Shown here piece by piece: positions 19,967-35,209 of a DNA stretch of 64,000 nucleotides (position 1 is the stretch's first letter; every line of letters starts with the position of its first letter). The notes below the pieces were generated by a model. That model saw nothing but the letters and a program-made list of their open reading frames with translations, did not search any database and was not told the DNA's origin. The DNA comes from a virus: the IMG/VR virus record IMGVR_UViG_3300043539_002606, positions 1-64,000 of that record; one strand, written 5' to 3'. The position numbers were made by a program, and so were the translations under genes.

Positions 19967-21048
19967 AGACTATCAAGGGCTTGGGCTTCAACATAAAGTT
20001 CTTGCAATAATGTTTTAATTCGATCTCTGTCAAGATCTGTTTCAACAGCATCTACATAGTTATTAAGCAAACTAACTGTGTCTGTTGCAACTGTAGATTC
20101 ATCGATCGTTACATTGCTTGCATTATATTCATCAAAATTTTCAACTGTCTTTACTTCAAATGGATTTGTTGCTTGTATTGCATCAACAAATTTGTCAAAG
20201 AGATAGGGATTCTTTTTGACTCTCACAACTAGCTTGACATAGGTCGATGTTAATGCACTAAAATCATATTCAGCGAGATCAGCATAGATGTTATCATCTG
20301 CATCGCTATCATCATAAACAAGCTTATTGAAAAGAGTAATGGGATTACGAATTGCAGTTAGCTCACGAGTCTCACTATCAAGAATATGAAAATATTTTGG
20401 ATCATCACAATCTGCCCATGTTAATTCATAGGGTGTGCCAAGATAGTGTATATTTCCTTTGTCACTTTTTGTATGATAGTGACCACTCAACACACTCTCA
20501 TAGCGAGAGAAAAGTTCTGCGTTCATGCCATGACTTGCAGCTGGCATGCCTTTCATCATCTCAAAGCCAGCAAGCTCTAGATGTGCACCAAGTATTGGAG
20601 CTTGGGCAGTTTGTATAAATTCAATGCTGCTAGCATAATTCTCTGGATTAATCCATGGCAGCAGTGCAATCTTTAATCCATCATAATCCAAAATTGTTGG
20701 ACTCATATGCAGCTTAATAACATCGCTATGCAACATGACAATCTCTTGCAAGCTGCAGACATCGTTTGTGCTCTTGTAATAGACATCATGGTTGCCAGGA
20801 ATAATATTCATCGTCATGCCATATTCACGAAGCTTTTCAATGAAATTGGCTTTGTTTGCAGCCAATGCTTTGATGTTCGTAAATTTGCGATGATCATAAT
20901 AATCACCTAGATGCAGGATTTCAGTGATGCCTTGTTTTTTACATTCAGGAAAAAATACTTCATCATAGAATCTCTTTTCATTGTTAATAAAGACATCGCT
21001 GCCATTTTTGATCCCGCTATGGGTATCTGTGATAATAGCTATTTTCAT
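19963..21048 (-). CDS. 47: Recombination endonuclease subunit gp47 (SbcD/Mre11-like)
   Basis: Metallophosphoesterase nuclease partner of gp46, 361 residues (T4: 339). All phosphodiesterase motifs are visible: DTHSG near residue 8, LGDYYDHR near 48-54, GNHDVYY near 85, and GHYHTKS near 192. It overlaps gp46 downstream and gp55 upstream by four bases each, so 55-47-46 forms a tightly coupled unit driven by the gp55 promoter. Confidence 0.95.
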   Translation of the reverse strand: MKIAIITDTHSGIKNGSDVFINNEKRFYDEVFFPECKKQGITEILHLGDYYDHRKFTNIKALAANKANFIEKLREYGMTMNIIPGNHDVYYKSTNDVCSLQEIVMLHSDVIKLHMSPTILDYDGLKIALLPWINPENYASSIEFIQTAQAPILGAHLELAGFEMMKGMPAASHGMNAELFSRYESVLSGHYHTKSDKGNIHYLGTPYELTWADCDDPKYFHILDSETRELTAIRNPITLFNKLVYDDSDADDNIYADLAEYDFSALTSTYVKLVVRVKKNPYLFDKFVDAIQATNPFEVKTVENFDEYNASNVTIDESTVATDTVSLLNNYVDAVETDLDRDRIKTLLQELYVEAQALDSL

Positions 21049-21689
21049 AGTGTTGCAAAGAAATCACTCAATGGACCAAGTTCTGGTGTTTTTTTAGCTG
21101 GTCGACCTCTTTTCTTTTTGGTCGGCAATGGCTCATGATCCTTAACGCTGCAAAGATCATCATTATAAAAGTCTCCATCAAGTTTATGACGAGCTCGTTC
21201 AATCATGCTCTCTCCGATCTGACCGCTGTCGTCACCAAAGTCTGCAAATGAATCAAGACTTGAACCTTCAATAAGTTTCTGCTTAATCTCGGTTTGTTTC
21301 TTTTCTTTTTCAATGCGTCTCAAAAAGGCATAATAACTGATTTGGGTAAAATAGCTAAATGCATTTGGTGTGCCAGTTCGAGTAGGAGCATCAATATTAA
21401 AGTTATTGACAACCTTAATGCAATTCTCAACTGCATCCATAACCATATCATCTCGATAGCTATAGTTCATGAAGTTGGGACTTCTTGATAAGCCATTGGC
21501 AATCTGATAAATCCCCAATGCAATATAGTCTGTAACTACTGGATCCTCAATGCCGCTTGCTCGGGCAGTTTTAACGCTTTGAACATATGAGGCCAAAGCC
21601 AAACTAAGTTCTTTATTGTTAATATAATCGGATCCTTCTTTTCTTTTACGTGTACTTTTTACTTTTTTTGGTTGATCTTCTTCAATCAT
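21045..21689 (-). CDS. 55: Late sigma factor gp55
   Basis: Sigma-like subunit that directs host RNA polymerase to NATAAATA late promoters. The match to T4 gp55 is clear around NFMNYSYRDDMVMDAVENCI (residues 80-100) and NAFSYFTQISYYAFLRRIEKE (125-145), the region-2-like core. From the ATG at 21689 it is 214 residues; a frame from 21713 would read through the promoter and is rejected. The C-terminus LGPLSDFFATL resembles the gp43 tail SSLEDFFA and is a likely gp45-binding peptide. It contains a KKKRGRPAKK stretch before the tail. It has its own early-type promoter with the -10 seven bases before the ATG. Confidence 0.92.
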   Translation of the reverse strand: MIEEDQPKKVKSTRKRKEGSDYINNKELSLALASYVQSVKTARASGIEDPVVTDYIALGIYQIANGLSRSPNFMNYSYRDDMVMDAVENCIKVVNNFNIDAPTRTGTPNAFSYFTQISYYAFLRRIEKEKKQTEIKQKLIEGSSLDSFADFGDDSGQIGESMIERARHKLDGDFYNDDLCSVKDHEPLPTKKKRGRPAKKTPELGPLSDFFATL

Positions 21690-21696
21690 GCTATCT

Positions 21697-21724
21697 AGTA
21701 TACCACAAAACAAAAGTTTGTAAA
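21697..21724 (-). promoter_or_regulatory. Early-type promoter for gp55-47-46
   Basis: Minus-strand TTTACA (21719-21724), 16-base spacer, TATACT (21697-21702), seven bases before the gp55 ATG. Confidence 0.75.
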
Positions 21725-21748
21725 CAATTATTTTTATGAATTTTTTGG

Positions 21749-21776
21749 TTTACAAACAATCAGATTCATGTATAAT
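21749..21776 (+). promoter_or_regulatory. Plus-strand early-type promoter of repeated element, copy A
   Basis: TTTACA (21749-21754), 16-base spacer, perfect TATAAT (21771-21776). It points rightward, opposite to all adjoining genes, and lies back to back with the gp55 promoter. Confidence 0.7.
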
Positions 21777-21815
21777 AGGTGCCATGCACCTTCGGCTGAA
21801 TGTAATGAAGCCGAT
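21768..21815 (+). repeat. Duplicated 48-bp element, copy A
   Basis: Identical over 48 bases to 35162-35209. Contains the -10 TATAAT, a 5-bp stem GGTGC-CAT-GCACC (21778-21790) and a 6-bp stem TCGGCT/AGCCGA (21792-21814) with an 11-base loop. It lies in the 190-base gap between glf and gp55. Could be the 5' end of a small RNA, a tiny leaderless gene, or a protein-binding site; see findings. Confidence 0.85.
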
Positions 21816-21852
21816 AGATGTTGCTGATTGTTTGCTCTTAAAATATCTATAA
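21784..21852 (+). CDS. Possible leaderless micro-ORF, element copy A
   Basis: ATG at 21784-21786 lies seven bases after a perfect TATAAT, the same spacing as real genes here. It encodes 22 residues, MHLRLNVMKPI followed by DVADCLLLKYL, then TAA. The first 11 residues equal those of copy B. Very short, so this may simply be a small RNA. Confidence 0.25.
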   Translation: MHLRLNVMKPIDVADCLLLKYL

Positions 21853-21876
21853 TGATATTATAATCTCATAAGAGCA
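21833..21876 (-). terminator. Hairpin downstream of glf
   Basis: Long imperfect stem: TGCTCTTA/TAAGAGCA outer arms with an inner AATATC/GATATT stem. It lies four bases past the glf stop. No T run follows on the minus strand, so it may be a 3' stabiliser or factor-dependent terminator. Confidence 0.45.
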
Positions 21877-21879
21877 TGA

Positions 21880-22905
21880 TTATTCTTTAATCTTTCGAAA
21901 GCCAAGTAAGGTATGTTTTACTGCCATCCACATGTCTAGATACTTATAGTTGCTTAATCTGCCTGTAAACATTACATTCTTTTCTTCGGCTTTAAGCTTT
22001 TCATATTGGGAGTATTGACGCTGTGCATCTCCCCATGGTATTGGATAATAAGGTATATCATTCTCTCTTGCCTCTTTTGGCAATTCGCTTGTAATGACAG
22101 TCAAGCCTTTATGATCTGGGTTAAAATAGCTATGATCATAGATTCTTGTATATGGCACATCAGCTCTATTTTGATTGACAATAAATGTTTCTTGTTTTGG
22201 AACAAATGCCTTATGATGAAATTCCAAACTACGATATGGCAATCGTCCATAGCAATAGTCATAATATTCATCAATTTTTCCAGTATAGACCAATAGATCT
22301 CGAGGAGCAGATTTCCATGCATCACCATCGGAGTTTATATGCACAGTTATATTCTCATGATCAAGCATGCTGGCAAACATAGCGCTATAGCCATGCTTTG
22401 GCAAGCACTGATATTTTTGATGTCGAAACCATGTTGGATTTTCATCATCTGCTGTTTGAGGTATGCGATTTGTAATGGTTTGTGGGATTTCTTCAAATGG
22501 CACACCCCATTGTTTTTCGCTATATTCCTTAAAGAAATATTCTCGAATCTCCTCTGGCTCAAGTTCTCGACCCAGTGCTGCAACTGTTGCCCGTGAATAT
22601 GGCAATGGCACAACTCCCAATCGAGTATCTCCTAATGGTCTTAATTCAAATGGAATCCATTCAGTGAATCGACTCAAAAATTCAAAAACCTCTTCATCAT
22701 CAGTATGAAAAATATGAGGACCATAGGTGTGTACTCTTACGTGACCCATTAACTGATCTGCACAATTGCCTCCAATATGATCACGTGATTCATATATTGT
22801 TACGTTCGCGCCAGCATCAGCAAAGCATCGAGCAGCTGTGCAGCCACTTAGGCCTGCTCCAACCACTACTATATTTTTATTAACATATTCCATTGTCTTT
22901 TGCAT
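21880..22905 (-). CDS. glf: UDP-galactopyranose mutase
   Basis: Flavoenzyme interconverting UDP-galactopyranose and UDP-galactofuranose. The 341-residue protein opens with the FAD-binding Rossmann motif VVVGAGLSGCTAAR, then YESRDHIGGNCAD, and carries the UGM-typical THxYGPHIFHTD segment, FKEYSEKQWG, IPYTRIYDHSYF-like active-site arginine region (RIYDHSYF) and a C-terminal GRLSNYKYLDM FAD contact. Length is slightly short of bacterial Glf (about 370). It overlaps the upstream glycosyltransferase-like gene; an internal ATG at 22893 is an alternative start. Its location between uvsW and gp55 is an accessory insertion into a core block. Confidence 0.9.
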   Translation of the reverse strand: MQKTMEYVNKNIVVVGAGLSGCTAARCFADAGANVTIYESRDHIGGNCADQLMGHVRVHTYGPHIFHTDDEEVFEFLSRFTEWIPFELRPLGDTRLGVVPLPYSRATVAALGRELEPEEIREYFFKEYSEKQWGVPFEEIPQTITNRIPQTADDENPTWFRHQKYQCLPKHGYSAMFASMLDHENITVHINSDGDAWKSAPRDLLVYTGKIDEYYDYCYGRLPYRSLEFHHKAFVPKQETFIVNQNRADVPYTRIYDHSYFNPDHKGLTVITSELPKEARENDIPYYPIPWGDAQRQYSQYEKLKAEEKNVMFTGRLSNYKYLDMWMAVKHTLLGFRKIKE

Positions 22906-23557
22906 ATCTATAGACTAATTCTTCTTGATATTTTGTATCTGTATATGTTGCAATAATTTCATCGAGATTCTCATGAAATGCCTTTGCTATTTTCTTCATA
23001 TTCTGAAGATCACCACAATAAAAATTATCAACACCAATTACTGATCTGCTTAATCTTGGATGTCTAAAGACGAACTCTCTGGTAAAAATTAATTTATTGC
23101 ATATTGACATATTTGCTTGACATATTGGTCGGGTGAAATAGTCCCAACGTGTATTAATGATTCTAAAATAATCATCTGGTATTTTCTCTAATCCGCTGTG
23201 TATGCCAGCCCACATATTTTTCCAACTTATTTTTGGTATTTTACTTTGACAAATTTGACCATCAATCGTTTGATGTAGTTTTAATTTGCTATCATCAAGA
23301 ATCGTGATATTTTTAATAATATCCTTATGCTCAATAAAATAGTGTTCAATAAGATTTGGAGTAACAATCAATTTTGCACTATTATTGACTTCGCGATAGC
23401 TGCTATCAGCTTCAGCATATTTCCAACTTTGACAATAGACGTGTAAATCAACATCGCGTTTGCTTCTTAAATTTTGTACAAATTCCTTTAGACTTGGACT
23501 AAATAAGCCATCACGAATATGTCCTCGAATATAAAGGGCTATTTTGTGTTTGTTCAT
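22880..23557 (-). CDS. Glycosyltransferase-like protein
   Basis: A 225-residue protein beginning HKIALYIRGHIRDGLF, with DLHVYCQSWKYAEADSSYREV and YFRIINTRWDYFTRP. The opening beta-strand with RGHIR, the strand LHVY and the R-x-D-x-F segment resemble uncharacterised glycosyltransferase-like proteins of phages and marine bacteria. It overlaps the uvsW stop by an ATGA junction and overlaps glf downstream, so it is translated with both. With glf next door, transfer of galactofuranose is a reasonable guess for its activity; the acceptor (DNA base, capsid, or host surface glycan) is unknown. Confidence 0.6.
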   Translation of the reverse strand: MNKHKIALYIRGHIRDGLFSPSLKEFVQNLRSKRDVDLHVYCQSWKYAEADSSYREVNNSAKLIVTPNLIEHYFIEHKDIIKNITILDDSKLKLHQTIDGQICQSKIPKISWKNMWAGIHSGLEKIPDDYFRIINTRWDYFTRPICQANMSICNKLIFTREFVFRHPRLSRSVIGVDNFYCGDLQNMKKIAKAFHENLDEIIATYTDTKYQEELVYRYAKDNGIC

Positions 23558-35135: not shown

Positions 35136-35142
35136 TTTTTTG

Positions 35143-35170
35143 TTTACAAACTTTCAACATTATGTATAAT
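35143..35170 (+). promoter_or_regulatory. Plus-strand early-type promoter of repeated element, copy B
   Basis: TTTACA (35143-35148), 16-base spacer, perfect TATAAT (35165-35170). It points away from gp17 and toward gp16, antisense to both flanking genes. Confidence 0.7.
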
Positions 35171-35209
35171 AGGTGCCATGCACCTTCGGCTGAATGTAAT
35201 GAAGCCGAT
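35162..35209 (+). repeat. Duplicated 48-bp element, copy B
   Basis: Identical to 21768-21815. Lies between the gp16 stop and the gp17 start. Stems GGTGC-CAT-GCACC (35172-35184) and TCGGCT/AGCCGA (35186-35208). Flanking sequence differs from copy A apart from the TTTACAAAC around the -35 box. Confidence 0.85.

Follow-up and report, generated by a model that had tools for sequence, protein, structure and literature searches.

The antisense promoter and the duplicated unit

The window analysed here, 64,000 nt of the viral record IMGVR_UViG_3300043539_002606 (positions 1 to 64,000), contains a plus-strand promoter between glf (Pfam GLF, E 3.7e-57) and gp55, the gene of the late sigma factor. Overlapping this promoter is a 48-bp unit, which recurs in a second copy between the genes of the small and large terminase subunits, both likewise confirmed by profile. 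The genes flanking the two copies, A and B, all lie on the minus strand, and downstream of the units no plus-strand gene was found for tens of kb. The first-pass annotation of this DNA had reported the promoter as TTTACA-N16-TATAAT and the 48 bases from 21768 as identical to those from 35162; both statements were reproduced exactly. The features are as follows.

21045-21689, minus: gp55, late sigma factor (PHROG 234, E 1.4e-46)
21697-21724, minus: sense promoter of gp55, TTTACA-N16-TATACT, 7 nt before the ATG and divergent from promoter A (promoter search)
21748-21757, plus: -35 region GTTTACAAAC of antisense promoter A, hexamer TTTACA at 21749-21754 (sequence; kept in relatives of the lineage despite a differing spacer; 12/12 match)
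21768-21815, plus: 48-bp unit, copy A, identical to copy B (sequence comparison)
21771-21776, plus: -10 hexamer TATAAT of promoter A (sequence; family-wide conserved antisense promoter at gp55)
21777-21791, no strand assigned: start-site dyad or hairpin 1 of A, AGGTGC-CAT-GCACCT, centred on the predicted start at 21784 (pairing; compensated form GGGTGC..GCACCC in lineage L096)
21784-21852, plus: 22-codon frame MHLRLNVMKPIDVADCLLLKYL, probably not a product (sequence; not conserved outside the lineage)
21792-21814, plus: hairpin 2 of A, TCGGCT-GAATGTAATGA-AGCCGA, abutting hairpin 1 (three pairs changed on both sides; fold)
21834-21875, plus: possible downstream hairpin of RNA A, GCTCTTA..TAAGAGC, with a weak T-tract, an uncertain terminator (fold; absent from the terminator-scan list)
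35142-35151, plus: -35 region GTTTACAAAC of promoter B, hexamer at 35143-35148 (sequence, promoter search)
35162-35209, plus: 48-bp unit, copy B, flanked by the genes of the small and large terminase subunits (sequence; flanking gene profiles)
35165-35170, plus: -10 hexamer TATAAT of promoter B (sequence, promoter search)
35171-35185, no strand assigned: start-site dyad or hairpin 1, copy B (sequence, pairing)
35186-35208, plus: hairpin 2, copy B (sequence, pairing)

Promoter A agrees with TTTACA/TATAAT at 12 of 12 positions and its N16 spacer falls within the 16-18 bp required of sigma70-type hexamers; together with B it was the top-scoring of all early/middle-type promoters found in the window. 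As GTTTACAAAC is common to A and B at -35 though their spacers differ, the -35 box is part of the repeated unit. The 39 bp on the 3' side of the -10 consist of two abutting hairpins with no spacer between them. The stem previously noticed at the start does exist, with 6 bp instead of the 5 bp given for it, and the 6-bp stem-loop TCGGCT/AGCCGA lies where it had been described. A 38-bp core is present in exactly two copies in the window (none in shuffles) and a 21-bp core at only two places in the whole 83.6-kb record, while a search of the window for further copies of the 48-bp unit at up to 3 mismatches gave none, as did shuffles. Neither unit was listed by the terminator scan as an intrinsic terminator (GC stem followed by a U-run). 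T4-like phages are known to carry structured RNAs, among them the Rfam motifs wcaG and manA, which the hairpins resemble in this respect; unlike these motifs, the window gave 0 matches to Rfam covariance models at gathering threshold. Overall, we hold the anatomy and the conservation of the element with high confidence.

The upstream sequences of all coding regions of the window reveal the promoter grammar of this phage: late genes are preceded by (T)ATAAATA boxes, early/middle genes by GTTTACA-N16/17-TATAAT-like boxes, and behind both kinds the start codon usually follows 6-9 nt past the -10, so that the mRNAs of this phage seem as a rule to be leaderless or nearly so. The resemblance of copy A to leaderless genes that had been pointed out earlier is therefore genuine, and the ATG 7 nt past its -10 opens the 22-codon frame as described. 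T4 early promoters depend on the host sigma70 and likewise combine a GTTTACA-type -35 with a TATAAT -10 and AT-rich upstream sequence; unlike them, the element described here points antisense into other genes and has a self-complementary start region.

Conservation in close relatives and across the family

The exact 20-mer TATAATAGGTGCCATGCACC was found in 13 stretches of viral contigs, at positions orthologous to A and B, and 4 contigs hold both. A looser pattern added the more distant lineage L096, whose gp55 is 68% identical and in which A lies beside uvsW without glf. Conservation in relatives, on which the first-pass annotation had made its reading depend, was thus found. For the identity of the copies the same annotation had offered selection or recent copying, and both apply, as seen in the orthologous retention and in the similarity of A and B within one genome, respectively. 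As a separate observation, glf and its neighbouring gene (window 21880-23557) stand between uvsW and gp55 and are missing in L096, a gene insertion at the border of the element.

Across 7 sequences hairpins 1 and 2 covary: 98.6% of the cells are paired, and all four pairs that changed did so on both sides, never on one alone. For comparison, sliding the partners by 1-3 columns lowered the pairing to 26-50%. Stem 2 occurs as TCGGCT/AGCCGA, CCCGCT/AGCGGG and CCCACT/AGTGGG, and the loop GAATG(A/T)AATGA is near-invariant with one varying base. Judged from the alignment, this loop on a covarying stem makes an added function at the RNA level probable in this lineage.

At the gp16-gp17 junction L025, L035 and L058 carry an antisense promoter TTTACA..TACAAT without the hairpins or an obvious dyad. 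Since relatives with 67-75% identical terminase have such a hairpin-less promoter there, the B site probably held a promoter before the module arrived. In L024 an inserted open stretch, a candidate homing endonuclease by its appearance, sits about 60-300 nt ahead of the gene for the large terminase subunit. A near-identity search of annotated phages for the element returned no match. A host or prophage copy was considered and rejected: the single Brevibacillus contig that matched a 19-base pattern lacks hairpin 2 and is at chance level (about 2 matches expected, an estimate).

The promoter upstream of gp55 and directed away from it is also present in relatives with 44-68% gp55 identity and spans the Kyanoviridae, from freshwater and marine contigs to the pelagiphages HTVC008M and Mosig and to cyanophages. 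All 12 consensus bases are present in 33 of 59 sequence clusters (dinucleotide shuffles: mean 0.09, maximum 2). Cultured carriers are HTVC008M, Mosig, P-SSM4, S-H9-2, Syn1, S-B64 and C48C1, some with a weaker -10. The Sinorhizobium phage phiN3 has the promoter as well; in Melnitz-3 it is weak at best. Both in the window and in Mosig the site lies where the late structural operon (gp23, uvsY, uvsW and others) meets the gp55-gp47-gp46 replication operon. Clades that share promoter and dyad show no conservation of the RNA downstream of the promoter or of its reading frames.

Antisense promoters are common and rarely conserved. That one has been retained at a single site in T4-like phages from freshwater and the sea and also in a Sinorhizobium phage, with a start-site pairing that outlasts its letters, is strong evidence of function. 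This conserved promoter is absent from every annotation retrieved, and no description of it was found in the literature searched, in which coverage of subscription transcriptome work (e.g. on Syn9) was limited. With HTVC008M, Mosig and P-SSM4 as cultured carriers the element is directly testable.

The dyad at the predicted start site

Most members have an inverted repeat directly past the -10, centred 5-8.5 nt downstream and hence on the predicted start site. Its sequence varies widely: besides AGGTGC-CAT-GCACCT of this phage we found AATCC-TATGT-GGATT, AATC-TAT-GATT, ATTC-TATA-GAAT, ACATT-T-AATGT, AGACTA-TG-TAGTCT, AACGG-TGT-CCGTT, AGGCA-TG-TGCCT, CAGGA-ATG-TCCTG and AAACC-GTGTAGA-GGTTT. Dyads of at least 4 bp occurred in 23 of 44 distinct sequences, against a mean of 3.5 in shuffles and 2-4 at other offsets, and dyads of at least 5 bp in 16 of 44. 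After clustering, 17 of 32 representatives had at least 4 bp and 12 of 32 at least 5 bp; when the halves were swapped between sequences in 2000 trials, the means were 2.85 and 0.89 and the maxima 11 and 5, respectively. The sense promoters of gp55 at the same loci served as control and gave 3 of 35 at 4 bp or more and 0 of 35 at 5 bp or more. The dyad had been spotted by eye before it was tested, and the clusters are not entirely independent of one another; given how large the excess is, and given the internal controls, chance is unlikely.

A full-consensus promoter combined with a dyad of at least 5 bp occurs only at A and B in this record and only at the gp55 site in Mosig, and the dyad taken as a genome-wide motif showed no enrichment. 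About half of the clusters are without a perfect dyad of at least 4 bp, and some stems, rich in AT, are not predicted to be stable as RNA. Wobble pairs, counted for the choice of strand, were G.T in 6 and A.C in 3 cases and did not decide between the strands. As judged by sequence, promoter and start-site dyad together are common to a large part of the T4-like phages. Since the predicted transcript begins inside the first stem, a plus-strand RNA would include hairpin 2 but not hairpin 1.

A possible insulator of gp55 and its alternatives

Promoter, dyad, pair-preserving turnover, duplication and position are observations; the mechanism that we propose for them is tentative, and we rate it somewhat below even probability. 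According to this proposal, the element is a strong antisense promoter, limited at the step of escape, by which gp55, and here also the terminase, is insulated from late-operon readthrough. Copy A is the local form of a conserved sigma70-type promoter pointing away from gp55. Its discriminator (about -6 to -1) and its first transcribed bases (about +2 to +7, counted from the predicted start) are complementary, so that one strand of the start region could pair with itself. The consensus promoter would recruit RNA polymerase, presumably early, the self-pairing start region would slow its escape, and the promoter-bound polymerase together with its short antisense transcription would shield gp55 from transcription running on from the upstream operon. 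The unit of this lineage has gained a second hairpin in its predicted transcribed part (+9 to +31) and has been copied to a second junction, between the terminase genes.

The insulator is favoured because the site sets gp55-gp47-gp46 apart from the late structural operon, and the lack of conservation of downstream RNA and frames across clades favours a function at the promoter over one in its product. If correct, it would bear on how T4-like phages keep the late sigma gene apart from late-operon transcription. Antisense promoters that act by transcriptional interference or as polymerase roadblocks, e.g. of the lambda pR/pRE type, likewise set a strong promoter against incoming transcription; unlike these, the present one has kept its place across a virus family and carries a start-site dyad. 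More broadly, there may be a promoter class whose melted start region is selected to self-pair, with the polymerase retained as a programmable insulator and kept long-term beside the late sigma gene, which we regard as rather unlikely. The pairing proposed for such a class is that of the discriminator with the initial transcribed sequence, in the non-template strand or in the nascent hybrid.

The near-invariant loop of hairpin 2 suggests a specific RNA function in this lineage, which would be superfluous to a pure roadblock. The main rival, especially in this lineage, is a small RNA gene, a possible though doubtful reading: A and B would be two genes of a short non-coding RNA, and its hairpin-2 loop (GAAUGAAAUGA) would bind a protein or base-pair with a target. 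At two sites hairpin 2 has been kept together with the promoter boxes, the loop is invariant save one base while its stem covaries, and that base (A or T) is the same in both copies of a genome, a sign of concerted evolution or of a common partner. L160-L166, moreover, have another conserved stretch at the same place. Against this stand the wholly different downstream RNA of clades that retain promoter and dyad, the lack of a strong terminator past either copy, and a folding of the first 60 nt that is barely better than that of shuffled sequences (mean z -0.85). An additional site complementary to the loop was not found in the window; the search for complementarity to other phage sites returned the element itself and one site with 1 mismatch, as chance predicts.

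Hairpin 2 would emerge just after initiation and could instead act in cis on the antisense polymerase, as do the put sites of HK022 and the nut sites of lambda, where likewise two almost identical hairpin units each follow a phage promoter directly. The conserved loop on an exchangeable stem would suit such a site. Unlike in put and nut, hairpin 1 overlaps the predicted start and would not be in the RNA, plus-strand genes are lacking downstream for tens of kb, and hairpin 2 is not present outside the lineage; we consider this reading improbable. Quite improbable is also a hairpin in the gp55-sense readthrough mRNA, serving as processing site or weak terminator next to an incidental promoter. 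Hairpin 1 would be complete in that RNA and AUUAUA follows directly 3' of the stem, but the tract is too U-poor, many stems are without predicted RNA stability, and the full-consensus antisense boxes are left unexplained. An origin of replication for which the antisense transcript supplies the primer, comparable to T4 oriF near uvsY, would fit the AT-rich spacer between the divergent promoters and the adjoining uvsW/uvsY, but the GC skew at four-fold sites does not switch around 21.7 kb, which leaves an origin distinctly improbable.

The micro-ORF to which the first-pass annotation had drawn attention does not hold as a general product, as in most other clades the frame is absent or stops after 1-6 codons. 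A leaderless micro-peptide gene of this lineage alone (20-50 codons, hydrophobic tail) would agree with the ATG spacing of real leaderless genes, with a frame open for at least 20 codons in all lineage copies, and with B copies that retain a common stop and change length in frame; the changes that preserve the stem alter the peptide radically (R/P, P/R, P/W), and we judge such a gene very improbable. Least credible is an operator of a dimeric repressor: a start-centred dyad is the classic operator position, but half-site and spacing vary freely while pairing persists (AATC-N3-GATT vs AATC-N7-GATT; AGACTA-N2-TAGTCT; AACGG-N3-CCGTT).

Three minor observations concern the antisense region upstream of gp55 in other clades. 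In L160-L166 about 60 nt of other conserved sequence, GATCCAGAC..CAGCAG..CAGGG.ATA.TCAAGG, possibly a distinct RNA, follow a TGTACA/TACAAT antisense promoter. In L171, L173 and L184 a GAGAAC..GTTCTC stem with T-rich sequence behind it lies about 50 nt past the start and might terminate a short antisense RNA. Finally, the predicted antisense AUG or GUG is leaderless and directly followed by a stop codon (AUGUAG, GUGUAG, AUGUAA) in many clades, namely L171, L173, L184, L197, L172, L183, L188, L150 and L105 as well as P-SSM4 (L204) and Melnitz-3 (L202).
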